NCBI GenBank assembly: GCA_029260495.1
Contig: JAJDDD010000005.1
Span: 1-64,000, forward strand
Direction of reading: 5' to 3'
DNA length: 64,000 nucleotides
Origin: Phycisphaerales bacterium
GTDB lineage: Bacteria > Planctomycetota > Phycisphaerae > Phycisphaerales > UBA1924
Positions 2,537-15,405 of this stretch are shown piece after piece. The stretch's first letter is position 1. The number at the start of each line of letters is the position of its first letter. A program made the translations under genes and the position numbers. The notes beneath the pieces were generated by a model. It ran no database searches, was not told where the DNA came from, and saw only the letters and a program-made list of their open reading frames with translations.

Positions 2537-2636
2537 GAGCGGTTTTCAGCGCTGAGCACAGCGCAGGGCAGCCCGCCACGACCCCGGCGATTTCCCCGGG
2601 TTGGCGGCGTGTGTGAAAAAATGATTGCTGTCCTCC

Positions 2637-2677
2637 GACAGATGTAGTAGATTGCCAGCTCCTACCCATGTAGGAGC
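2637..2677. promoter_or_regulatory. Two candidate BlaI/MecI-type operators
   Basis: At 2658-2677 there is a perfect inverted repeat: 8-bp arms GCTCCTAC / GTAGGAGC around CCAT. Its core TACCCATGTA differs by one base from the TACAnnTGTA core known for BlaI/MecI/CopY repressors. A second one-mismatch core, GACAGATGTA, lies at 2637-2646. The centres are 26 bp apart. They precede a BlaI-family gene, so autoregulation is the natural reading. Confidence 0.55.
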
Positions 2678-2741: not shown

Positions 2742-3179
2742 ATGACACGTTCTCATCGGCGCGAGATTGAGCTTGGCGACGCTGAGCTTGAGATTCTCAA
2801 GGCGCTGTGGGAGACGGGGCCGGCGACGGTTCGTGAGGTGATGAACCGGCTTCGTGAAACTTCCGGGCGTGAGCTGGCGTATACAACAGTGCAGACGACG
2901 CTCACCCGCCTTGAAAAAAAGGGCTGCGTCACCAGCCGGAAAGCTGCGGATTCAGGGCAGGCGCATGTGTTTCGCGCCAAGGTTTCGCGAGAGCGGATTT
3001 CCCAGTCCCGGCTGCGGGCGCTTCTTGAGCAGCTCTACGACGGGTCAGCGGCGCCGTTGGTGGTGCAGCTCATGGAAACTGAACGTTTCACGCCTGATGA
3101 AATCGTGCAGCTTCAATCGCTCATCGAGCGGCTGGATGACGTCGCGGTGAACAAAAAGAAGAAGGGGAAGGGCGGATGA
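2742..3179 (+). CDS. BlaI/MecI/CopY-family transcriptional repressor
   Basis: The 145-aa product has the family's winged-helix signature: LGDAELEILKALWE, then VREVMNRL, then YTTVQTTLTRLEKKG, followed by a C-terminal dimerisation helix. Such repressors bind operators as dimers and are inactivated by proteolysis triggered by a BlaR1/MecR1-type membrane protease. The start is ATG 2742, with GGAGG at 2729-2733. The gene overlaps the M56 peptidase gene by ATGA, the classic blaI-blaR1 arrangement. In planctomycetes such pairs are common and need not concern beta-lactams; there is no beta-lactamase gene in this window. Confidence 0.85.
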   Translation: MTRSHRREIELGDAELEILKALWETGPATVREVMNRLRETSGRELAYTTVQTTLTRLEKKGCVTSRKAADSGQAHVFRAKVSRERISQSRLRALLEQLYDGSAAPLVVQLMETERFTPDEIVQLQSLIERLDDVAVNKKKKGKGG

Positions 3180-6091
3180 ACTACTTCTCCCTCGAACTCT
3201 TCTGGCGCAACGCGTTGATCGCGATTCCGCTGACATTGGGCGTGATGGTGTTGTGCAGATGTGCGCCGCTGCGTCCATCGACGAAACACGCGCTGTGGCT
3301 GATCGCGATGTTGAGCCTGCTCGCGCCGCCGACAATTCCCGGCGCCGGACTTGTGCGCGATGGCGCAGCGAACCTCGGTGCGCGTGTGGTGGCGATTGTT
3401 GACGATATGAGAAGCAGCGCCGGCGACGTTGTCGTAGAACCCGGTGCGCCAGCAGCCCGCGATTCCGACGTGAATGTGAAGTTCGGCGCGCCGCTTGCTG
3501 TTCCGAACGAGCATCGCATCAGAACAAGGGCTCGTGTCGATGACCAGACCATGGTTGATCGAGCGCCGGCGCCCTTGGGTAAGCTGGCGCTCCTGCCTCA
3601 CGTGTCGGAGTTGACCGATGACCTGCCTGCAGCGTCATTTGTTGAGCCGGAGCGGCTGCCGGGAGGCGCCCATCGAAGAATCACCCGGCGCAGCGACTGG
3701 TTGACAGCGCCGTTGGCGAAACGGGAGCCGGCGCCTGTTGAAGTCGAGATAGATTACAACCTGAGCACGGGCTTGCTGGCGCCGACACCCACAACTCCGG
3801 GCGTGGCTGATAGAGTGGCGATCGCGCCAAAGCAGCGAGTCGCGCGGGTTGGCGATGGCGAGGCCAACAAAGACAGAACGAAGGCAACGGGCGACGAGTC
3901 GGGTTATTTCACAGCCTTTGCAAGGCCCGAGGTATGGCGTTCGTGGGGCGCGAAGCTTGGCGCGATCCGTGATGAAGCGATGACGCTCCCTCCCATCCCG
4001 CCGATGATCTGGCTCTTCGGGGCGGTTATCGCGTTGGCAATGGCGAGTGTGCGCATGGCGCGTTTTCGCAGGATGTTGGCCAAAGCCGTTGAAGCGCCGG
4101 CTTGTGTGCAAGCTCTCGTCGAGGAGACGGCGCGGGAGTTGAAAATGCGCAAGACGCCGGACGTTGTGCTGGTCGAAGCGCCGACGCCGCCGATGTTGTG
4201 GTGCGGGGCGCGTCGGCTGCTCATTTTGCCGGCGCCACTGTGGGAGCAGCTGAATGATGACGCTCAGCGAGCGATTGTGCTGCATGAACTGGCGCATCTG
4301 AAGCGTCGGGATCACTGGGTTTGCTGGCTGGAGTTGCTGATTGCGGGGCTTTACTGGTGGCATCCGGCGGTGTGGTTGATTCGTCGCCGGCTGCATGAAG
4401 AGGCTGATATTTGCTGTGACGCGTGGGTGACATCGGTGGCGCCGCAGCGTCGCCGGGCGTATGCGCACGCGCTTCTTTGGACACGAACATATCTATCCGA
4501 CGCGCATCGGCCGCTTCCCGCGGTTGGGCTTGGGGTGATGACGGGTCGGGCTCACAAGTTTGGACGGAGGCTCACCATGGTATTGACGCAGGAAACCAAA
4601 CCACGCATGTCCTTTCGCGGGCTTCTCGCAACAGGATTGATGAGCGCGATCGTGCTGGCAGCGGCGCCGGCGCTCGCGTGCAACGATCAGGCGAAGGCGC
4701 CCGAATGTGAAAAGGAGAAGAGCGGGCAGACTCTTGAGAAGAACAATCAGGCGCCGGCGGATGATGCGACGACGTTTGAAAGACACCTGCGCGGTTTGAG
4801 CGCCGCTCAGAGTGGACTGAACAGTCAGGCTCCGGCGCGTTTGCTGCGCGCGAGCGACGACCATGGGAACATCGACGCGCGTCTCAGCAGGCTGGAAGAA
4901 CGGCTGGATGTGCTGGCGCGAGCTCTGGAAAAGGTGGGGAAGGGTCGCGGCGGAGCTGTGTATTCGCAGGCTGCGCCGGGCGCTCAAGGACGGAGCGGGG
5001 TGCGCACGGCCAAGCCGGCGCCGCCTGCGCCGCCTGCGCAGATGGCCCCGCGTGTTCATGTTGGCGATGGGGGGCTTGAAGTTCGTTCATATGAGTTGCC
5101 TGCGGACAAGCTGAAGGCGCTGACGAAGCTGATGTCGCGCGATGATGTGCCTATTTTGATCGAGCCAGGCGATGGCGCGATCAAAGTCCACGCGACGCAT
5201 CCGCAGCACATGGTTTTCAATGCGTTTGTGACGATGATTAATCAGGAAGACCAGAAAAAGCCATATCAGCTGTCTGATGGCAAGCTCGACGCGATGACTG
5301 AGTTGATGGTGCTGAATACGGTGCCGATTCTGGTTTCACCCGGTGATGAAGCGATCGTGCTGCACGGGACAGATCTGGAGCAGCTCATCTTCGGCGCGTT
5401 TGTCCAGATGATCGATCCGGACAAGGCTCAGGCCCGCGACGATCGTCAGCAGGCCAAATCGTATGTCAAGAAGGCTGAAGAGTTGGCGAGAGCCCAGTTG
5501 AAGAAAGAGCGCAATAGAGAAGTCGATGAGCGCTTGATCGCCCGGCAGCGCGCCGCAGAGATAGAGCGCGCTTTGAAGAGCGAGCGCCGAGTCATCGAGC
5601 AGAAGGCGCGTGAGCTGGGAACCCAGCGGAAGATGCTTGAGCGCGAAATGCACGAGCTGGATCGCAAACGTGAAAAGCTTGAGCGCGAAGCAAGTCAACT
5701 GGAGCGCCAAGCTGAAAGATTGCATCGTCAAGCACAGGCACTGCAGGAGCGCGCTGCGAGCACGCTTGATGAAGTTGGCGAAGTTAATGGCGAGCGGCGT
5801 CTGGCGATGATCGCGGAAGCTGAAGAGCTGGCGGTTCACGCAGCCGAGCTTTCAGATCAGGCTGCAGAGCTTGAAGAGGCGGCGGAGCGGATTGAGTTTG
5901 AAGCGGAGGATATCGAGCGCGAGGCAGAGCTTCGCGAGGAGGCCGCTGAGCAGATCGAAGAAGCCGCCGACGATATGGAAGAACGCTGGGAAGACCTCGA
6001 AGAGCAGTATGAAGAGGCGCTGGAAGAAATCGAGGATGAAGAAAGCGAAGAGGATGAGGAGGCGGAAGAGTCCATCGCGGCGATTCACTGA
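3176..6091 (+). CDS. BlaR1-like M56 family membrane metalloprotease with long coiled-coil C-terminus
   Basis: The 971-aa product has N-terminal transmembrane segments and an M56 zinc-protease domain with HELAH at 370-374 and the downstream acidic ligand region HEEAD near 407-411. A further hydrophobic segment lies around residues 480-500. The usual penicillin-binding sensor of BlaR1 is not visible. Instead there are two related segments (about 636-690 and 696-750), each with a PILxxPGDxAIxxH core. From about 755 to 965 there is a very Glu/Arg-rich coiled coil. The gene is coupled to the BlaI gene by ATGA. I infer a signal-responsive protease that inactivates the repressor; the signal is unknown. 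Confidence 0.8.
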   Translation: MNYFSLELFWRNALIAIPLTLGVMVLCRCAPLRPSTKHALWLIAMLSLLAPPTIPGAGLVRDGAANLGARVVAIVDDMRSSAGDVVVEPGAPAARDSDVNVKFGAPLAVPNEHRIRTRARVDDQTMVDRAPAPLGKLALLPHVSELTDDLPAASFVEPERLPGGAHRRITRRSDWLTAPLAKREPAPVEVEIDYNLSTGLLAPTPTTPGVADRVAIAPKQRVARVGDGEANKDRTKATGDESGYFTAFARPEVWRSWGAKLGAIRDEAMTLPPIPPMIWLFGAVIALAMASVRMARFRRMLAKAVEAPACVQALVEETARELKMRKTPDVVLVEAPTPPMLWCGARRLLILPAPLWEQLNDDAQRAIVLHELAHLKRRDHWVCWLELLIAGLYWWHPAVWLIRRRLHEEADICCDAWVTSVAPQRRRAYAHALLWTRTYLSDAHRPLPAVGLGVMTGRAHKFGRRLTMVLTQETKPRMSFRGLLATGLMSAIVLAAAPALACNDQAKAPECEKEKSGQTLEKNNQAPADDATTFERHLRGLSAAQSGLNSQAPARLLRASDDHGNIDARLSRLEERLDVLARALEKVGKGRGGAVYSQAAPGAQGRSGVRTAKPAPPAPPAQMAPRVHVGDGGLEVRSYELPADKLKALTKLMSRDDVPILIEPGDGAIKVHATHPQHMVFNAFVTMINQEDQKKPYQLSDGKLDAMTELMVLNTVPILVSPGDEAIVLHGTDLEQLIFGAFVQMIDPDKAQARDDRQQAKSYVKKAEELARAQLKKERNREVDERLIARQRAAEIERALKSERRVIEQKARELGTQRKMLEREMHELDRKREKLEREASQLERQAERLHRQAQALQERAASTLDEVGEVNGERRLAMIAEAEELAVHAAELSDQAAELEEAAERIEFEAEDIEREAELREEAAEQIEEAADDMEERWEDLEEQYEEALEEIEDEESEEDEEAEESIAAIH

Positions 6092-6390
6092 TTCAATGTG
6101 AAAATGTTTGTGGGTGATTGCAACGCAGTGGCAAGGCGATCGACCTGCGAACAAGATGCGTACACGAGCGCTCTGATGGCCATGGTCCGTGGCGCACCTT
6201 CGCGGGGATGCGCCCGGACCCGCTGGCCCCTCTCGATGGTGCAGGGTGTTCGCCGCAAAACCGCCTATTTTCACACCTTCGTCATTTTCTCCACGAACGC
6301 CAAACACTTCCACAACAGGCTGTCTGTTCCCCGAGCGCGGCGCCTGCGCGCCCTACACTGGCGATTCCACGAAGCAGGAGGCCGACGGTC
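6092..6390. other. Intergenic region upstream of the TPR-ExbBD operon
   Basis: About 300 bases without a convincing gene. A frame in phase with the TPR gene is open across most of it, but its predicted peptide has no signal sequence or conserved look. The only signal I see is a TACACT at 6354-6359, a -10-like hexamer also found ahead of other genes in the window, and the ribosome-binding site AGGAGG at 6376-6381. Confidence 0.4.
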
Positions 6391-9300
6391 ATGAGCGCAT
6401 TTCAAACATCCCTTCACACCCAATATTCCTACCCCTATCAGCCGCGCACGCGTTGGCTCTCGCGCTGGCGCCGTCGTGTGTGTGTTGGGCTTGCGGGCGT
6501 CTTGCTGGCGTTGGTGACTGCATCGACTGCGCAGGCGGGTGCTGTCGATCCTGCGGTGAAGTCCTTTCGCGCCGCCAACGGCTTTCTCTCGCGCGGGATG
6601 AACGAGCTGGCGATTGAGGAGTATCGACTCTTTCTGAACGCGAGCCCGCGTCATGAAAAAGTTCCCACGGCGCAATACGGGCTCGGTGTGGCGCTCTTTC
6701 GATTGAGCAAGTATGCGGATTCCATCGCAGCGCTTGGGCAAATCAGTATTGATGACACAGATTTTCCATTCGCCGCGGAGACGTTGCTTATCCGCGGGCA
6801 GTCGCATCTGGCGCTGGGAGACAGCGGTCGGGCGGCGGCAGAGCTTGGCGAGCTTGTATCGCAGTATCCAAGTCACGAGTCAGCAGGCGCGGCGCATGCG
6901 CTGCTCGTCGAGGCGCTGCATCGAAGCGGGGCCCACGCGCAGGCTGTGAAGAGTGCGGACGAGTTCCTCGCTCAGAATCGCGCGCCCGACCGAAGAGAGC
7001 GTGTGGCGTTCTTTGCAGCGTTGTCCCTGGTGGCGAGCGGGGACTACGCCAGCGCCAGCGATCGTCTGCAAACAATGCTCGACGCTCAGCCCGAAGGGGA
7101 GTTGAGCGATCGGGGGGAGTTGTTGCTCGCGCAGTGTCTGCAGCAGCAGGGGTTTCTGGAGCAGGCGCTGCGCAAACATGAAAATGTGCTGAGTCGGAAG
7201 TCGGCGGCGCTTGAGCCTGACGCGCTCTTTGGCGCGGGGTCCGCGTTGGTCGGGTTGAACCGTTTCCAGGAGGCGACACCGGCGCTTGAGCAGTTGCTTT
7301 CGCGCTATCCCGAAAATGAGCTGTCGCAGCGGGCCCGGGTGCTCCTGGCGCGGGCGTATCTGGCTCAGGATGACGCGCAGCGGGCGGCCCGGGCGATCGA
7401 GCCGGTTGCGGCTGAGGACGCTTCGCTGGGTGACGATCGCGCCTACTGGCTCGCCAAAGCAGCGATGGCGCGCGGGGATGACGCTGAGGCGGTCCGGCAG
7501 ATCGGGCGGGCCCTCGATTGGTTCCCGAAGTCGGAGCTGCGCGTTTCGATGCTCTATGACCTTGGTGTTGCGCAGCGGAATCGGGGCAAGCTTAATGAGG
7601 CCCGCGAAGCGCTGGTTGCGCTATTGAAAAGCGATCCCGATGCAAACCTCGCGGCGCCGGCAACGCATCTCCTGGCGCACACACTGCACGAGCTTGATCA
7701 GTTTGATGAAAGTTTGGCGCTGTGCGAGCAGTTTGCACAGGCATTCCCGCAGCATGAGCTTGGTCGGTCGTTGGAGTTCCTGCGGGCGGAGAACTTGTAT
7801 CTTTCCGGCGAGCGCCAAGTTGCGATCGATGCGTACACAGCGTTCCTGCAGAAGTATGACGGGTCGCCGGAATCGCGCGACGCGACATACCGGCTTGGGA
7901 TGGCGCTGTATCAGGAAGGTCGGTATGAGCAGGCGTGGCCGATCCTGACGATCGTTTCGAAGTCCAATGCGGCAGACGGTCGGCGGTCGGCGTCGCTGCT
8001 CGCGCTGGGTGAGATTGCCTTTTCCGAACGCAAGTGGGCCAATGCAGAGGCGGCGCTGCGCGAGCATCTGGAGTTGGTCCATCCGGGCGATGCGAGCGAG
8101 ACAGAGGCGGCGCGGCTGAAGCTTGCGCTCGCGATCGTGCGGCAGGATCGACCGCAGGAGGCGGCGCCGTTGCTCTCGGATATTACGCAAGAGGCGAAGG
8201 ATGATGAAGTGCGGTTGCACGCCCGGTTTGAACTCGCCCAGGCGCTTTCGACTCTGGAACGCGATGAAGAAGCCGAGCAACTCTTCGCCCGAGTTGTGGA
8301 GGAAGCGCCGGAGTCGCGATTCGCGCTGCACGCCCGGCGGAAGCTGGCCGACATGGCGATGGCTCGCGGCGATAACGAAACCGCCCAGACGCTGTTGGCG
8401 GAGGTCGGCCGGGCGGCTCAGGATGACGCTCTGCTAAGCCAGACGCTCTTCGCACAAGCCCAGGCGTTGATGGGATCGGGGAAATACGCCGAAGCGGGGA
8501 TGGCGCTGGATGCGGCGCTGCTTGCGAATCCGGAAATGGATGCAGCCTTGACAGCGCGGGCGCAGCGGGCGGTCTGCGCGGCGCGGGCGGGTGATGGTGA
8601 TGAAGCGCTGAAGCTTTTCGATGTTTTCTCACCGCGCGAGATGGACCTGCTGGAAGAGCCGTTGCGGGCAGCGCTTCTGTATGAGCGGGGGTATCTGCTG
8701 CGCCAGCGCGAGCGGGATGATGAAGCGGCACAGGCCTATCGACAGCTGCTCGGGCTCGAACGGACGGACGCTCTCAGTGCGCACGCGATTTTAGATTTGG
8801 CGGATATCGCTTCAAATAGAGGTGAGTATGAAGAGGCGCTTGGATATCTGGATCAGTTCTCAGCCATGCTGGCCTCAGCCACAGCGCCGAAAGTGACGGC
8901 CCAGACGCGGGCCCAGGCGCTCTATCGACAAGCGGCAGCGGCGTATCGACTGGGCCAGCTCAAGCGGGCGGCGCCGCTCTTTGACGCATTTCTTGCTGAG
9001 TTCAGCGATCATGAGCTGGCGGGCTCGGCGCTCCTGCTCGCGGGCGAATCGCATCTGGCTCAAGGCCATCATTCCGAGGCGGCGAACCGATTGGCGCGAT
9101 TCGCGAACAACTACAAGCAAGATGAAAACCTTCCCGCAGCCCTGCTTCGTCTGGGTGAAGCGTACGCGGCGCTCCAGGACTGGCCATCTTCATACAAAGC
9201 CTTCAACGCCAGATTGAAGCGTTTCCCAGATGATCCGCTTTCGTTCCAGGCGCAGTTCGGCAGGGGCTGGGCGCTTGAAAACCAGCAGCAATATGATGAA

Positions 9301-9651
9301 GCGATCCAAGACTATTCCACCATCGTCGCGTCGCACGATGGACCCACGGCCGCACGGGCTCAGTTTCAGATTGGCGAATCGCTCTTTGCGCAGAACAAGT
9401 ATTCAGAGGCGACACGCGAGCTTCTGAAGGTGGACATTTTGTATGCGTATCCGGAGTGGTCCGCTGCGGCGCTGTATGAGGCAGCAAGATGCTTCCGGGC
9501 GATGGGTGACGAAGCCCAGGCGAGCAGTCATTTTCAACGTGTGATTGATGAACATGCTGAAACCGAGTGGGCGGCGCTCGCGACGCGGGAGCTTGCCTCG
9601 GCGGCGCCAGATGGAAACGGGCGGGCGCAGAACGCTCGCGCTAATGATTGA
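6391..9651 (+). CDS. Large exported tetratricopeptide-repeat protein
   Basis: A 1086-aa product. The start at ATG 6391 is chosen because a strong ribosome-binding site (GCAGGAGG) precedes it and a signal peptide (hydrophobic core to STAQAG) follows. The rest is a continuous array of TPR-type helical hairpins, with repeated patterns such as AxYxLGxALFxxxKYxxA and YPxxExxxxA, from about residue 55 to 1070. TPR arrays are protein-protein scaffolds. It is the first gene of an operon with ExbB, ExbD and a TonB-like protein, so a periplasmic adaptor role in that machine is likely (inference). Confidence 0.8.
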   Translation: MSAFQTSLHTQYSYPYQPRTRWLSRWRRRVCVGLAGVLLALVTASTAQAGAVDPAVKSFRAANGFLSRGMNELAIEEYRLFLNASPRHEKVPTAQYGLGVALFRLSKYADSIAALGQISIDDTDFPFAAETLLIRGQSHLALGDSGRAAAELGELVSQYPSHESAGAAHALLVEALHRSGAHAQAVKSADEFLAQNRAPDRRERVAFFAALSLVASGDYASASDRLQTMLDAQPEGELSDRGELLLAQCLQQQGFLEQALRKHENVLSRKSAALEPDALFGAGSALVGLNRFQEATPALEQLLSRYPENELSQRARVLLARAYLAQDDAQRAARAIEPVAAEDASLGDDRAYWLAKAAMARGDDAEAVRQIGRALDWFPKSELRVSMLYDLGVAQRNRGKLNEAREALVALLKSDPDANLAAPATHLLAHTLHELDQFDESLALCEQFAQAFPQHELGRSLEFLRAENLYLSGERQVAIDAYTAFLQKYDGSPESRDATYRLGMALYQEGRYEQAWPILTIVSKSNAADGRRSASLLALGEIAFSERKWANAEAALREHLELVHPGDASETEAARLKLALAIVRQDRPQEAAPLLSDITQEAKDDEVRLHARFELAQALSTLERDEEAEQLFARVVEEAPESRFALHARRKLADMAMARGDNETAQTLLAEVGRAAQDDALLSQTLFAQAQALMGSGKYAEAGMALDAALLANPEMDAALTARAQRAVCAARAGDGDEALKLFDVFSPREMDLLEEPLRAALLYERGYLLRQRERDDEAAQAYRQLLGLERTDALSAHAILDLADIASNRGEYEEALGYLDQFSAMLASATAPKVTAQTRAQALYRQAAAAYRLGQLKRAAPLFDAFLAEFSDHELAGSALLLAGESHLAQGHHSEAANRLARFANNYKQDENLPAALLRLGEAYAALQDWPSSYKAFNARLKRFPDDPLSFQAQFGRGWALENQQQYDEAIQDYSTIVASHDGPTAARAQFQIGESLFAQNKYSEATRELLKVDILYAYPEWSAAALYEAARCFRAMGDEAQASSHFQRVIDEHAETEWAALATRELASAAPDGNGRAQNARAND

Positions 9652-9722
9652 TCGCGCCGAGTTGCATCGCATCTTTGTGTGAAGCGCTGCGTTCTATTCG
9701 TTCTTTTTCGGAGCAGACACTG

Positions 9723-10652
9723 ATGACAATAATGAACACACTTCTCGAAGTGGCGCTCCTCACGCTGGGGCAGGTGGATCCGCAAGCGCCGGCAGCAGCG
9801 GCAGACGCTGTGAACGCAGCTCAGCCAGCTGTAGAAGCGGCTGCGTCGGAGGCTGGGGGCGGCGGTCTGACGGTTGCCTCTGTTTGGGATTTTCTCATCA
9901 AGGGCGGGCCGGTCATTCTTCCGATCGCGCTGTGTTCGCTGGTTGCATTTGCAGTGTTTCTTGAGCGGCTGATGAATCTTCGGCGCAGCGCCGTGATCCC
10001 GCGCCGCCTGTACAAGCGAGTCGCCGAGGCGATGGAGAGTGGGGGAGGGCCCGAAGAAGCGAAGAAGCTTTGTGAAAAGAACGGAAGCGCATTGGCGCAG
10101 GTGCTTGCGGCGGGTTTGCGCCGGCTGGGCGAACCGACTGAACTCCTGGAGAAGCATGTCGCCGAGGCGGGAATGCGACAGGTGCGGCGTCTGAAGCGCC
10201 GGCTGCGCGTGCTCGCGGTGATTGGCGCTGTCACGCCGTTGCTTGGTCTCTTGGGAACAATTCTCGGCATGATCGGCGCCTTCCAGACGGTCGCTTCTTC
10301 AGCAGAGGCGCTCGGGCGCACAGAGCTTCTTGCTGAGGGGATTTATGAAGCGATGATTTCAACCGCAGCAGGATTGACGGTCGCGATTCCAGTCATCATC
10401 GCCCACCATTGGCTGCTGGCGCGCATCGATCGCTTGATTAGCGACATTGATGAAATCGCAGTGAACTTCGTCGAGCGCTTCGCCCGGCCCTCAGCGGCGG
10501 CGAATGGCCATCATCGGGATGTCGCGCCGACTCCGCACGCCGGGGAGAACAATGTCGCTTTGGCAAAGGATCCCGGCGTGAAGGTTGTGACAGGCAGCAG
10601 CGCGCCGACGTCGTTGCGGTCGCCAACCAGCGCCGAGCCGGCGCCACACTGA
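9723..10652 (+). CDS. exbB: MotA/TolQ/ExbB proton-channel family protein
   Basis: A 309-aa product with the family layout. It has an N-terminal Ala-rich exported region, a first transmembrane helix (VILPIALCSLVAFAVFLERL), a cytoplasmic loop, and two further helices within LAVIGAVTPLLGLLGTILGMIGAF and ISTAAGLTVAIPVIIAHHWL. The GLLGTxxGMIxAF signature is clear. ExbB/TolQ pentamers with an ExbD/TolR dimer conduct protons and drive TonB or TolA. ATG 9723 has GGAG at 9710-9713. The ExbD gene follows after about 40 bases. Confidence 0.88.
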   Translation: MTIMNTLLEVALLTLGQVDPQAPAAAADAVNAAQPAVEAAASEAGGGGLTVASVWDFLIKGGPVILPIALCSLVAFAVFLERLMNLRRSAVIPRRLYKRVAEAMESGGGPEEAKKLCEKNGSALAQVLAAGLRRLGEPTELLEKHVAEAGMRQVRRLKRRLRVLAVIGAVTPLLGLLGTILGMIGAFQTVASSAEALGRTELLAEGIYEAMISTAAGLTVAIPVIIAHHWLLARIDRLISDIDEIAVNFVERFARPSAAANGHHRDVAPTPHAGENNVALAKDPGVKVVTGSSAPTSLRSPTSAEPAPH

Positions 10653-10689
10653 TTTGGAAACAAGAACTTGACGCAATGTGAGGCCTGCC

Positions 10690-11103
10690 ATGTTGATTGA
10701 TATGGAAAATGAAGTCGAAACGCCGGCGGTGGAACTCACGCCGTTGATCGACATGGTGTTTTTGCTTCTCATTTTCTTTCTCGTTGCGACGACGTTTCAT
10801 CAGACAGAGCGCGAGATGCAAATCGCGCTTCCCGCAGCCCAGGCCGCCGGGCCGATCAGCGCACAGATGCGCGAGCTTGTCGTCAATGTCGATGCAGAGG
10901 GCGTGATCCATGTCGGCGGGCGCGAGATCACTAGCAATGATCTCCAGTCCATCATCACGGACGCTCTTGCGCGCAATCCCGATCAAAAAGTGACCGTGCG
11001 CGGCGACCGATCCGCAGCGTACGAACATATTGTCGTCGTGCTCGACGTCTGCAAAGGGGCGGGCGTCATTGAGCCGTACTTGGACACAGTTCTTCTTCGT
11101 TAG
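10690..11103 (+). CDS. exbD: ExbD/TolR family biopolymer transport protein
   Basis: A 137-aa product starting MLIDMENE. It has the family signature VELTPLIDMVFLLLIFFLVATTF, which includes the membrane Asp used in proton translocation, and a periplasmic domain ending in the usual VxVRGDxxxxYxxIVxVLDxCKGAG pattern. ATG 10690 follows TGAGG; a GTG at 10678 and an ATG at 10702 are also in frame. It works with the ExbB encoded just upstream. Confidence 0.88.
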   Translation: MLIDMENEVETPAVELTPLIDMVFLLLIFFLVATTFHQTEREMQIALPAAQAAGPISAQMRELVVNVDAEGVIHVGGREITSNDLQSIITDALARNPDQKVTVRGDRSAAYEHIVVVLDVCKGAGVIEPYLDTVLLR

Positions 11104-11163
11104 ATTGCTCCGGCGCGCCGCGATCAGCGAGCAGCGACGCCGTTCACAAGTTGATTCTTTGCA

Positions 11164-14100
11164 ATGATGACGCGCCCGACCGTTGATCCCGTCAGTCTGC
11201 TTTCTCCCAAGCGATGGTTGCGCGCCGGCGCCGTGGCGATCTTCATCCTCGCCGCCGTTCTCGCGCTTGTCGCGATTGGCTGGCTCGCCGCGGGAGCGCC
11301 CGGAGTCTACTACACCGATGATGGCTCAATCCGAGCCCCGGCCCAGAGCGCAAGCCTGCGCTCGATTCTCTGGCGTCCTGCCCAGTCGCTGCCACCGCAC
11401 ATCAATACGTTTGAGAATGATGAATATGAGCCGCGCGTCAGCGCCGACGGTTTCTCGCTTCTCTTTGTACGCGGCAAGACCGGCGCGAATGCGGATATCT
11501 ATTTCTCCACGCGCTCGCCCGCCGGCTGGTCCGCGCCGGCGCCCATAGAAGCGATCAACACTGAAGCTGACGAAATAAGCCCCGCCCTCTCCCCTGACGG
11601 AAACACACTTTACTTTTCGTCAAACCGCGCCGGCGGGCTCGGCGGCTACGACATCTACCGCGCCACGCGCGATGTGCAAACCGGCGCGTTCGGCGCCGCG
11701 ATCAACCTCGGCGATTCAATCAACACCCGCTTCAACGAGTATTCACCCGCGCTCTCGCCGGATTCCGGCTGGATCGTCTTCGCATCCAATCGTCCCGGGC
11801 AATCTGCACAAAACGCGAATGAGCCCGAGCGCTGGGCTGCGACGATGCGCGAGAGCCTCGCCCGGCGCGATCATGACCTCTATCGCGCTGACCTCATCGA
11901 TGGGGGCAGCTTATTTTCCAAGGCGGCGCCGATCGAGGCGCTCAACACCGATCACAACGACGGTTCGCCCTCGTTCAGTCCGGTGGGGGATTTTCTCTAC
12001 TTTGCCTCCGATCGTCCTGAAGGCGTTGGCGGGTTTGATCTTTACCGATCGCGCATTTTTAGGGGCGCGGTCAGCAGCGTTGAACCCATCGGCGCGCCCA
12101 TCAATACATCTGCAAATGAGCTGGACCCCGCCCCAGCGATGGAGGGGTTCGGTCTTTATTTCGCGACGGATCGTGCGCTCGCGCCCCCCGGAAGCGACCT
12201 TGCGGACATCGCGCCCCAACAGCCGGCAAGTTACAATCTGGCATTCACATCTTCGCGCGAAGTTCGCCGGGCGATTGATGCGCCAGTGATCGAATGGGCC
12301 AGCCTGTGGGACAATGTCCTGCCGTGGCTGTGGTGGGCGTTGATCGCACTCCTCTCGCTGGCATTGCTTGCGATGCTCGCATGGCTCCTCTCCCGGCGCA
12401 GCGAGGAGCGCATGGGTGTGATGGCCAAGTGCGTGCTCGCCTCCATCATGGCGCATGTCATTTTACTGTTGCTGCTGAGCGTCTGGCAGGTCTCGGTGGG
12501 AGTGGGTGAGGCCCTGCGATCGACAGGAACGCGCGTCGCGATCATTTCAACGCCGCGCTCAGATGGGGTGGCGTCGCAAGTCGCAGCCCTCACCACGACG
12601 GCGGACCTTGCGCCGATCGAGGCGCCGCCAGCTGAGCGCATCGCAGCCACACTCGAACGGCCGCCAGCGCCGGCGCTCGTTCAGCTTGATCCAACGCTTC
12701 GTGAACAAGAAACCCAGCCGCTCGTGCGCATGGAACAGCCCACTCCTATCGAATCGACAGCGCCGATGATCGAGCTGGATCGGCCCCAAGCCAAAGCGCC
12801 CGAGCCACTTCCACAAGCTGACATGCAAACCCCGGCGCTCGCCCAGCGCACACACACAAGCGAAGCGAAACAACCTCTGCCCGATCCAGTCCGGGAAACC
12901 CCAACGCCGGCGACGCTCGCGCCGACAGCGCTTGGTCTTGAAGTGTCTCCCGTCGATCGTGTTGAAATAGACCCGACAACCCAGCTCGCTGTCGATGCAA
13001 CACTTGCGCCACTGACCCCCCCGACAGCAATCGCGCTGAACAGTGAGCAACTGGCCAGCCCGATCGAGCCCGAGATGCGAATTGAACCAGTCGAAGGCGT
13101 CGTTCTCGCCGACGCGCGCACGCCGGAACAATCGCCTGCTCGACCTGAACAGGAAGCCTCCACGGTTTCGCCACAGGCTGAAATGAATCTTCCAACCCTT
13201 GATGCGCCCGCGAGCGCAGCGCCCGCCGTCGAAGTGGCAGAGTCAATCAGCGTGGCGATTAATCCCGATCAACCGCTCGAACTTATGCACGATGAACGGC
13301 TGGCGCCGCCACCGGCGCTCGAGCATGAGTCCTCCAGTTTGCTGACGGCGCCTGATCGTGATGCCGTCGCATTGATCGAAACTCCCGAGCTGAGCGATCC
13401 AGCCCACGTCGCTGGTCCATTAACGTCGCCCACCCGGGCCCGCGCGGAGGAAGCTGCTCCGAAATCTCCCGAGCCGCCGGTTGTCAACACCGTCGATCGC
13501 GCCGCAGCGTCGGCGCCCGTCGCGACAACTCCGCTGACATCCGAGTCCGTGCGCATCGATCCGGAGCTGCCGGCAGTTGAGATCACGCCTGATCGGTTTG
13601 CTCCTCTGGTGGATGCGCATCTGCCAACAGCCCTTCCTGAAAACTCACTCGCGCCCTCGCCTGACATCGAGCTCAATCTTGCGCTGCAGGCGCCCGTAGA
13701 GATTGACTCCCCCGCGCTTGATGGCGCCGGCGCGCAGGCGGACGAGTTGGCCTCGGAAACCTTGGCGCCGGAATCACTCGACGCGCGCTCCCTGGCGCGG
13801 GCTGAGCCGGAGACAGCGATTTCGATGAATGATTTGCCGCCTGTCGCGCTCGTCGAGCTCGCGGCGCCGACAGCTCTTCAACCAGAGGCTGCGCTGGAGC
13901 GAATGGCTCACGAGATCGTTGCGCCGGAAGTATCCATTACTCGTGAGACGTTGGACGCCCCGAGCCCGCGCGTGGATATCGCAATCGAAGCTCCGCCTGC
14001 GCTCGCGCTTTCGAGGACCCCCGATCTGAACGAAGCGCCTGCTCCGACAAGTGAACGCCACGCGGCAGCCGCCGCGCCAGTCGAGATTGACGCCAGGCCA

Positions 14101-15405
14101 AGTCGGTCAGCCGATCAGCTTGCAGCCTCAAAGGCCGCCTCGGCGCCAGAGCGCATCGAGCTTGAGACGCCGGCGCTCACATCAAACCCGCGTGCTGCCG
14201 AAGTGGCGCTCGCCCCAGCGCAGCAAATCAAGCCCTCAGATCTTCCTCCGCCATCCATGCCGATCGACGCCCCCGCCTTCGTCAGTGAATCGGTGGCGAC
14301 GCCAACAGCCAGCGCGCCGATCGCGGTGGATATTTCGATTCCACATGAAGTGAAGATCATTGAAAACCCCTACGCCCAGCGCGCGCCCGAAGCTCGCATC
14401 GAGCTGCTCGAACAGCACGGCGGGAGTGACGAAACCGAACAAGCAGTTCAGCGGGCGCTGGATTGGCTCGCGCGCCACCAGAGTCCTGACGGCCGATGGG
14501 ACTCAGATGGGTTTGACGATCACTGCGGCCAGTGCGCCGGCGCCACGGACATTGATTCAGACATCGCGCTCACCGGCCTTTCGCTCCTGTGTTTTCTTGG
14601 CGCCGACCACACGCATCTGAAAAACGGCCCCTATCAACAGGTGATTCAGTCAGGACTTGATTTTCTGCTCCGACACCAGGAAGCCAACGGTGACCTGCGC
14701 CAGGGTGAAACCATGTATTCGCATGGAATCGCAACCATCGCCCTCTCAGAAGCCTACGCAATGACCAGCGATGGACTCCTGCGCAAACCCGTCCAGCGCG
14801 CCATTGATTTCATCGTCGTGTCGCGCAATCGAACGGTTGGCGGCTGGCGCTATGATCCCGGACAAGTGGGGGACACCTCCGTTCTCGGCTGGCAGGTGTT
14901 GGCGATGAAAAGCGCCCGCAGATCAGGGTTCGATGTTCCCGAGCAGGCGATGAACAACGCCCGCATCTGGCTTTCCCGCATCTCCTCCGCTGCAAGGCCC
15001 GGTTTGTGCGCCTATCAGCCGGGCATGCGCCCCACAGCGCCCATGACCGCAGAGGCGCTCTTTGTGCGCGAAGTGCTCGGCGCCGACCGCAACGCGGAAG
15101 AAGTCGTCAACGCTGCTGAGTTTATTTCCGATGAGCTACCAAGCTGGGCTCGCGACGCCAACACCTACTATTGGTATTACGGCACGCTCGCCCTTTTCCA
15201 ACGCCAGGGCGAACAATGGACGCGCTGGAATGATCGCCTCAAACGAGAGCTACTCAAAATGCAGAGCGATCGCGGGCGCAGCGCTGGAAGCTGGCCGGTC
15301 GAAGACAAGTGGTCGCAGATCGGCGGGCGCGTCTACCAGACCGCGATTTGTTGCCTGAGTCTTGAGGTCTATTACAGGTACTTGCCGGTGTATACGCTGG
15401 AATAG
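11164..15405 (+). CDS. Multi-domain protein: PD40 repeats, TonB-like membrane anchor and linker, squalene-cyclase-fold domain
   Basis: The 1413-aa product has an N-terminal transmembrane helix (about 20-40) and four or more PD40/TolB-type propeller repeats (about 80-330; SPALSPDGNTLYFSSNRAGG). Two more helices lie at about 385-410 and 422-441. The last resembles the N-terminal anchor of TonB-type transducers (SIMAHVILLLLLSVW). Next is a Pro/Ala/Glu-rich linker of about 630 residues. The end (about 1090-1413) is a prenyltransferase/squalene-oxidase-like alpha/alpha barrel (ALDWLARHQSPDGRW; GGWRYDPGQ). Catalytic Asp-rich cyclase motifs are not evident, so the barrel may be a binding domain. Being last in the TPR-ExbB-ExbD operon supports an energy-transducing role (inference). 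Confidence 0.75.
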   Translation: MMTRPTVDPVSLLSPKRWLRAGAVAIFILAAVLALVAIGWLAAGAPGVYYTDDGSIRAPAQSASLRSILWRPAQSLPPHINTFENDEYEPRVSADGFSLLFVRGKTGANADIYFSTRSPAGWSAPAPIEAINTEADEISPALSPDGNTLYFSSNRAGGLGGYDIYRATRDVQTGAFGAAINLGDSINTRFNEYSPALSPDSGWIVFASNRPGQSAQNANEPERWAATMRESLARRDHDLYRADLIDGGSLFSKAAPIEALNTDHNDGSPSFSPVGDFLYFASDRPEGVGGFDLYRSRIFRGAVSSVEPIGAPINTSANELDPAPAMEGFGLYFATDRALAPPGSDLADIAPQQPASYNLAFTSSREVRRAIDAPVIEWASLWDNVLPWLWWALIALLSLALLAMLAWLLSRRSEERMGVMAKCVLASIMAHVILLLLLSVWQVSVGVGEALRSTGTRVAIISTPRSDGVASQVAALTTTADLAPIEAPPAERIAATLERPPAPALVQLDPTLREQETQPLVRMEQPTPIESTAPMIELDRPQAKAPEPLPQADMQTPALAQRTHTSEAKQPLPDPVRETPTPATLAPTALGLEVSPVDRVEIDPTTQLAVDATLAPLTPPTAIALNSEQLASPIEPEMRIEPVEGVVLADARTPEQSPARPEQEASTVSPQAEMNLPTLDAPASAAPAVEVAESISVAINPDQPLELMHDERLAPPPALEHESSSLLTAPDRDAVALIETPELSDPAHVAGPLTSPTRARAEEAAPKSPEPPVVNTVDRAAASAPVATTPLTSESVRIDPELPAVEITPDRFAPLVDAHLPTALPENSLAPSPDIELNLALQAPVEIDSPALDGAGAQADELASETLAPESLDARSLARAEPETAISMNDLPPVALVELAAPTALQPEAALERMAHEIVAPEVSITRETLDAPSPRVDIAIEAPPALALSRTPDLNEAPAPTSERHAAAAAPVEIDARPSRSADQLAASKAASAPERIELETPALTSNPRAAEVALAPAQQIKPSDLPPPSMPIDAPAFVSESVATPTASAPIAVDISIPHEVKIIENPYAQRAPEARIELLEQHGGSDETEQAVQRALDWLARHQSPDGRWDSDGFDDHCGQCAGATDIDSDIALTGLSLLCFLGADHTHLKNGPYQQVIQSGLDFLLRHQEANGDLRQGETMYSHGIATIALSEAYAMTSDGLLRKPVQRAIDFIVVSRNRTVGGWRYDPGQVGDTSVLGWQVLAMKSARRSGFDVPEQAMNNARIWLSRISSAARPGLCAYQPGMRPTAPMTAEALFVREVLGADRNAEEVVNAAEFISDELPSWARDANTYYWYYGTLALFQRQGEQWTRWNDRLKRELLKMQSDRGRSAGSWPVEDKWSQIGGRVYQTAICCLSLEVYYRYLPVYTLE

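Follow-up and report, generated by a model that had tools for sequence, protein, structure and literature searches.

The locus described here raises the question of what a proton-driven ExbB/ExbD motor would act on when the long protein encoded behind it carries a TonB/TolA-like helix and lacks a match to the TonB C-terminal domain. The Ton and Tol systems are the textbook routes by which proton-motive energy is brought to the outer membrane. In the window, that is, the whole analyzed stretch of 64,000 nucleotides from contig JAJDDD010000005.1 of a Phycisphaerales bacterium, four co-directional genes at positions 6391-15405 encode a TPR protein, ExbB, ExbD and a protein of 1413 amino acid residues (aa). 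Open frames and Pfam matches confirmed this arrangement, which had been proposed in an earlier sequence-only reading (Table 1). We consider it probable, at roughly 0.6, that the cassette encodes a Ton/Tol-type force transducer that spans the envelope, is powered by the proton-motive force and has a new architecture.

Table 1. Coordinates of the cassette, of the parts of its long protein and of the upstream region in the window.
Feature	Position	Strand	Evidence
TPR protein, 1086 aa	6391..9651	+	many Pfam TPR models; open frame 6118-9651, ATG at 6391
ExbB/TolQ-like proton-channel subunit	9648..10652	+	MotA_ExbB 97.4 bits (cut-off 22.9), E 6.8e-28; open frame, likely start ATG 9723 or 9732
ExbD/TolR-like subunit	10678..11103	+	ExbD 89.1 bits (cut-off 25.4), E 3.1e-25
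Force-transducer candidate, 1413 aa	11164..15405	+	open frame; PD40, hydrophobicity, linker composition
First membrane helix, residues 15-42	11206..11289	+	N-terminus inside, positive-inside rule by eye
PD40 beta-propeller, residues ~87-374	11422..12285	+	PD40 110.3 bits (cut-off 20.9), model
Second membrane helix, residues 378-412	12295..12399	+	hydrophobicity, model
Third membrane helix, residues 419-452	12418..12519	+	Ser427-x3-His431-x6-Leu438; hydrophobicity, model, alignment
D-box/motor-box-like strand TRVAIISTP, residues 456-464	12529..12555	+	strand predicted at 454-458, model ends at 460
Pro/Ala-rich linker	12556..14385	+	composition
Alpha/alpha-toroid (squalene-cyclase-fold) tip	14386..15402	+	SQHop_cyclase_C 27.3 bits (cut-off 26.1) at residues 1087-1180; model
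Two operator-like dyads, 26 bp apart	2633..2676	+	5' of BlaI-like gene
BlaI/MecI-like repressor	2742..3179	+	Penicillinase_R E 1.3e-29; open frame from 2625
M56/BlaR1-like membrane metalloprotease, 971 aa, HELAH site, long C-terminal part	3176..6091	+	Peptidase_M56 E 8.1e-31

Conservation of the gene set and of the motor residues

Relatives were collected with the propeller-anchor core of the 1413-aa protein. The best 80 of 337 matches were kept, that is, 80 core frames in 79 loci of named genomes (named set), so weaker, motor-less relatives could exist. In addition, 27 fetched loci holding long proteins (L037-L063) were taken from 198 genomes of the class (class set), and 16 cassette loci were fetched from a sample of 294 genomes of the phylum. 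Genes of the named set and of the phylum loci were called using profile hidden Markov models (HMMs) built from the class-set loci; the named set is not independent of the class set, because several contigs are common to both. According to their labels, nearly all named-set genomes belong to Planctomycetota or one of its subgroups, with one labelled Alphaproteobacteria and one merely 'bacterium'. Near-copies (L129/L136 and L127/L130/L134) were counted as separate rows. Genes were taken as open frames; frameshifts in metagenome-assembled genomes (MAGs) are likely, and L124, L172 and L191 appear broken.

Among the named-set frames with enough upstream sequence, every one of 77 has ExbD and ExbB upstream, and every one of 75 has the TPR gene. 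In the class set, 24 of 27 loci have all four genes in the same order; the exceptions are L046, L054 and L058, which are cut by contig ends. In the phylum loci, ExbB and ExbD were present in 16/16 and TPR in 15/16, with the remaining locus at a contig end. Since the order recurs across Planctomycetota, the four-gene set is not a matter of chance. The conservation for which the sequence-only reading had proposed a search was thus recovered, and homologues of the PD40-anchor protein without ExbB and ExbD, which would have spoken against that reading, were not encountered within the best 80 of 337 relatives or in the phylum loci.

The motor subunits are conserved at the level of single residues as well. 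The transmembrane Asp of ExbD (D25 of the 141-aa frame) is kept in 79/79 rows, and S97, the pore threonines T204 and T239, and P248 of ExbB are each kept in 78/78. These residues resemble the contact and pore residues that the part of PMC12215075 on the E. coli motor describes; they were matched by motif context, not by structure.

Membrane helices, anchor and linker of the 1413-aa protein

Hydrophobic stretches of the 1413-aa protein start at residues 24, 392 and 423. The structural model of residues 1-460 (predicted local distance difference test, pLDDT, 83.7) shows a helix at residues 15-42, the propeller, two helices (378-412 and 419-452) and, just past the last of these, a short strand. 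The Pro/Ala-rich linker extends from residue ~443 to 1075, is ~630 residues long and contains 15% Pro and 18% Ala over the 608 residues measured. Hydrophobicity, Pfam, composition and the model therefore agree with the layout read from the sequence alone, namely, an N-terminal helix, PD40 repeats, two further helices and the long linker.

The third helix, which had been likened to a TonB/TolA anchor, carries Ser427 and His431 as its sole invariant residues across 17 sequences. The Ser-x3-His motif, counted together with a hydrophobicity test for the helix, was found in all 77 named-set frames that reach the helix; the other 3 of 80 end or break earlier. These alignments support the assignment of the third helix as a TonB/TolA-type anchor. 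The following segment shows a hydrophobic-alternating pattern in 67 of 77 frames vs 214 of 735 equally long pieces of the linker, and the pattern plus a following Pro in 31 of 77 vs 49 of 735; the strand itself was predicted by the model for the window protein only. In TonB, the D-box is a strand after the helix that joins ExbD, as stated in the part of PMC10907165 concerned with it. No Pfam match to the TonB C-terminal domain (PF03544) or to a vWA domain was found in the 1413-aa protein.

The PD40 propeller and the comparison with Tol-Pal

The propeller lies between the first two helices, and its model has five blades by our count of strands. In the Foldseek search with the N-terminal half, the 16 best matches were all TolB entries (best E 7e-13), with TM-scores of only 0.35-0.39 by query length. 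VIA-align placed GalNAc deacetylase first (Z 20.9) and listed many GH43/GH62-type propellers, with TolB at 17.8. NCBIfam additionally ranked over TolB (36.5 bits) two models of the OmpA/PorE type, which score 146.5 and 126 bits and stay under their cut-offs. TolB has six blades (PMC12204202, section 9). Identification of the propeller as TolB was dropped: TolB_N is absent, VIA-align ranks other propellers higher, and five blades were counted.

Tol-Pal likewise comprises a motor, an anchor, a PD40 propeller and a TPR protein, and a condensed Tol-Pal-like machine that stabilizes the outer membrane would assign the TPR protein to CpoB, ExbB/ExbD to TolQ/TolR, and the 1413-aa protein to a fusion of a propeller as in TolB with an anchor and a linker as in TolA. 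We regard this as unlikely. NCBIfam ranks tolQ and tolR over exbB and exbD for the motor subunits, but the scores (81.6 for tolQ, cut-off 221; 62.7 for tolR, cut-off 127.3) are far under the cut-offs. The TPR protein exceeds the cut-off of tol_pal_ybgF (TIGR02795, 295.9 bits, cut-off 90.1), but TPR models cross-match. The first places in Foldseek favour TolB, whereas VIA-align, NCBIfam and the blade number do not. TolB_N (PF04052) is absent from 41 of the 42 genomes searched, the source genome included, while OmpA/Pal-type domains occur in 42/42 (three times in the source genome), which counts in favour of this machine; however, TolB_N is equally absent with or without the cassette, so there is no signal of replacement. 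A Pal-like gene does not recur beside the cassette in 24 neighbourhoods, and the source genome encodes a further transducer, whose TonB_2 match is weak. Moreover, the propeller is fused to the anchor here and the tip is a different one. As judged from domains and scores (no TolB_N, no adjoining Pal gene, scores under cut-off), the cassette is not a member of Tol-Pal.

Two variants of the propeller region were also seen. In the divergent relatives L055, L057, L060 and L063, a toroid is inserted within the PD40 propeller, which gives two toroids per protein. L061 and L071 lack the propeller but keep three helices, beside TPR, ExbB and ExbD.

The tip domain and its exchange

The model of the C-terminal domain is an alpha/alpha toroid (pLDDT 89.7), in line with the alpha/alpha-barrel anticipated by the sequence-only reading. 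According to VIA-align, it is closest to squalene-hopene cyclase (Z 26.7, root-mean-square deviation 2.9, 282 aligned residues); structure families beyond those listed by this program may match as well.

The claim that the protein ends in a squalene-cyclase fold instead of a TonB domain held for the fold and for the missing TonB match, and failed in so far as the toroid was taken as the defining tip. Among 67 complete named-set frames (25 + 20 + 17 + 1 + 4; the other 13 of 80, which either contain N or run into the end of a contig or locus, were excluded), the toroid alone was found in 25, the toroid with a CarboxypepD_reg/beta tail in 21, the tail alone in 17 and neither in 4; single tip classes may be wrong, because MAG frameshifts are likely. 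The tail consists of a CarboxypepD_reg match and a subsequent stretch without Pfam placement above the cut-offs. In the tree of the cores (65 rows including the window, among them one 5'-cut frame that the tip count excluded), the tip type needs 16 changes, the shuffled mean being 30.5, and the starred branches force at least 2 to 3 changes per group.

The toroid also occurs outside the cassette. A search of the 198 class genomes with the tip domain gave matches in 155, many of them in short frames, and a second match in the source genome. Stand-alone toroid proteins of the same family (360-712 aa; L064-L070 and L072-L076) have no motor gene nearby in 12/12 loci, as assessed with HMMs from this cassette. 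The tip shares its domain family, which is widespread in the class, with planctomycete prenyltransferase/squalene-cyclase-fold proteins; the difference is that here it ends a motor-linked protein. No relatives of the tip were found in viral contigs.

DxDD is the catalytic motif of class II cyclases. The expected absence of such Asp motifs was borne out, since D.DD occurs anywhere in just 2 of 46 toroid tips; cyclase activity is therefore unlikely, and the tip, as far as its motifs tell, is probably not a cyclase.

Proposed mechanism

In the force-transducer reading, ExbB and ExbD would form an inner-membrane motor. The 1413-aa protein would span the membrane three times, with the PD40 propeller as its first loop, in the periplasm beside the motor. 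The third helix may dock on ExbB through the Ser-x3-His pair, and the strand just past it would join the periplasmic domain of ExbD. The linker of ~630 residues could then carry the tip towards the outer envelope and transmit force to a target there. Since the tip is a toroid here and a CarboxypepD_reg/beta module in relatives, it would most likely serve as a grip that can be swapped to suit different partners in the envelope. The TPR protein, for which a Sec-type signal sequence was noted by eye, may be periplasmic and is a likely partner, perhaps as the scaffold that had been suggested earlier.

Several observations weigh against this reading. Leu, Met, Val or Phe stands here in place of the Trp that belongs to the ExbB network in E. 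coli. In the class set, His of the third helix is kept in 26/27 and Ser in 24/27 (neither in L056, Ala for Ser in L061 and L062, L046 being cut), and in the phylum set His is kept in 15/15 and Ser in just 10/15, with two frames lacking the helix. Taken together, His is kept in every readable frame but one, and the exceptions include Ala and Tyr. In the SHLS motif, the fourth residue is mostly Glu, Gln, Gly, Lys or Arg, so that the last Ser is rarely kept, and the Leu position is mostly Leu, Phe or Met. An outer-membrane partner was not seen near the cassette in 24 neighbourhoods, and no other neighbour recurred in at least 3 of these, save antisense frames of cassette genes. Finally, the distribution is patchy (at least 36 of 198 class genomes and at least 16 of the 294 in the phylum sample), which suggests an accessory function; these are lower bounds, since the searches used a threshold of E 1e-40 and scored 6 to 9 candidates in each genome, and the class figure misses G100, whose locus does hold the set.

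Relation to known systems

The cassette shares with the Ton system the motor subunits, the Ser-x3-His anchor, a D-box-like strand and a Pro-rich linker; it differs in that the long protein has no TonB C-terminal domain match and no recurring neighbour is a candidate TonB-dependent receptor. By this domain content, it is not a member of the Ton system. Force transducers with a vWA domain, tolQ/tolR-like motors and a non-TonB tip have already been published and found in Planctomycetes (PMC12204202, section 8). As described there, they likewise comprise TPR, tolQ-like and tolR-like genes, followed by a SHLS helix, a motor box, a disordered linker and a tip unrelated to TonB/TolA. The cassette differs from the vWA transducers of that description in its tip (toroid or CarboxypepD_reg/beta, not vWA), in having three helices and not one, with a PD40 propeller before the anchor, in the length of the linker (307-608 residues in 17 sequences vs ~100), in usually having one ExbD and not two, and in the frequently attached BlaI and M56 genes. 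Set beside the vWA transducers of that section, it is closest to them in kind and is a new version thereof, with Ton/Tol-type working as far as its sequence can tell. No paper on this cassette was recognised among the literature matches listed, subscription papers and preprints being outside their scope.

Section 8 of PMC12204202 argues that further motor-driven transducers await discovery and names the vWA ones. The cassette adds a case present in many Planctomycetota, bacteria whose envelope physiology is debated; in it, a propeller is fused to the anchor and the tip is exchangeable. With its conserved Ser-His pair, the cassette lends itself to a test by a single substitution, and the differing tips of relatives lend themselves to an exchange of domains. 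More tentatively, the cassette could stand for an autonomous, inducible planctomycetal transducer class, with a propeller clutch, a linker and an often-exchanged plug-in tip, and would then be the third functional class after Ton and Tol. If so, one motor cassette would serve different outer-envelope partners.

Putative regulatory genes upstream and operator-like repeats

Directly 5' of the set, two genes that the sequence-only reading did not include encode a Penicillinase_R-type (BlaI-like) repressor and an M56 protease. They overlap by 4 bases, and a gap of 299 bases separates the M56 gene from the TPR gene. The pair accompanies most named-set relatives, with the BlaI-like gene upstream in 47 of 58 frames and the M56 gene in 53 of 61, where the upstream sequence is long enough; no M56 or BlaI match was found in the 16 phylum loci within the fetched stretches.

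The first dyad has the form CTCCGAC-N3-TGTAGTAG (2633-2650), the second CTCCTAC-N4-GTAGGAG (2659-2676). ATG 2742 is preferred as the start of the BlaI-like gene, because these repeats fall inside the longer frame. A scan of the 64 kb for the dyad with at most 3 mismatches gave 5 matches, two of which are the second dyad on both strands and two of which lie elsewhere; shuffled sequences gave a mean of 0.47, and 0 of 100 reached 5. The 6-mer GTAGTA/TACTAC is present in 42 of 47 blaI upstream regions vs 1.9 expected, and of 45 exact TGTAGTAG sites in 49 loci, 34 lie just 5' of blaI and 0 before the TPR gene. The classical TACA-TGTA operator was rejected as a candidate, as it occurs only at shuffle level. 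No operator was found in the M56-TPR gap. Around the operator, 0 patterns of the -35/-10 type were found, and a consensus scan gave no promoter before blaI, so the promoter is unplaced. The simplest reading of the blaI/M56 region from its repeats and gene order is one autoregulated promoter, from which the cassette may be read on a single transcript.

As in the BlaI-BlaR1 and MecI-MecR1 systems, a repressor gene and an M56 protease gene stand together, with an overlap of 4 bases in the window and operator-like dyads in front; the difference is that a motor cassette follows them here. Pfam gave no penicillin-binding domain for the M56 protein of the window. Its C-terminal part contains two similar segments of ~50 residues (YELPADKLKALTKLM... 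and YQLSDGKLDAMTELM...) and ends in a long acidic coiled-coil-like stretch, both seen by eye. The repressor and the protease would probably switch the cassette on upon an envelope signal.

The same gene linkage, together with operator-like repeats that lie solely before blaI, would also suit a signalling or envelope-sensing complex, in which the motor and anchor detect the envelope state, the tip acts as a ligand binder, mechanical work hardly or never reaches the outer membrane, and BlaI/M56 act as the output arm; the tip folds do bind ligands in other proteins. This is rather improbable, since the cassette keeps, without exception, the Asp and Thr pore residues that mark a working proton motor, and the M56 gene is missing in 8/61 frames, the BlaI-like gene in 11/58 and both from the 16 fetched phylum stretches, so they are not always needed. 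It is very improbable that the tip is a membrane-tethered enzyme (terpene or glycan chemistry) delivered across the periplasm: enzymes are common in the fold family and several polar residues of the tip are nearly invariant in 46 rows (E1196 in 46, D1203 in 46, H1151 in 45, D1237 in 42), but D.DD is rare and the domain is dispensable, a beta module standing in its place in 17 of 67 complete frames.

Other motor loci and further observations

Six ExbD matches were found in the source genome, and the cassette looks accessory, one of several motor systems in that genome. Two other source-genome loci, C9 (L117) and C20 (L120), each contain two ExbD genes, an ExbB-like frame (by eye), a gene for a large protein and a transducer gene; both transducers have Ser-x3-His by eye and a vWA match, that of C20 being under the cut-off, and thus correspond to the PVC type already published (PMC12204202). 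The presence of a vWA-type transducer in another motor locus of this genome indicates that such variants coexist. The large proteins are of 920 and 771 aa, and the latter has a weak TPR match. At C16 (L119, 5421-8228), ExbD stands beside a TonB/TolA-like protein of 338 aa, which has a weak TonB_2 match that stays under the cut-off and which was missed by PF03544; no ExbB was identified beside this ExbD. With PF03544 itself, no TonB C-terminal domain was found in the source genome at E 0.001.

Horizontal gain by the genome of the window was considered as a candidate and rejected. The family relatives G003, G013 and G032 carry the tail-type version, with no M56/BlaI match in the fetched stretches; a single clade is compatible with the approximately unbiased (AU) test (p 0.44), and a transfer is therefore not claimed. 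In the MAG labelled Alphaproteobacteria, the core of the cassette (L193) groups with that of L198 (Phycisphaerae), which may reflect a mislabelled bin or a transfer. L217 (3-6175) has two consecutive PD40 frames behind ExbD; in the first, which has the toroid, the anchor helix was not found, and the transducer may be split or broken. In an empty-site comparison by way of the NfeD-like neighbour, G197 alone among 11 genomes has a protein that closely matches this neighbour (38% over most of its length). Positions 259-801 of the window, 5' of the cassette, show a weak match, under the cut-off, to the prokaryotic N-methylation motif (type IV pilin-like). In L178, two cassettes stand in tandem on one contig.

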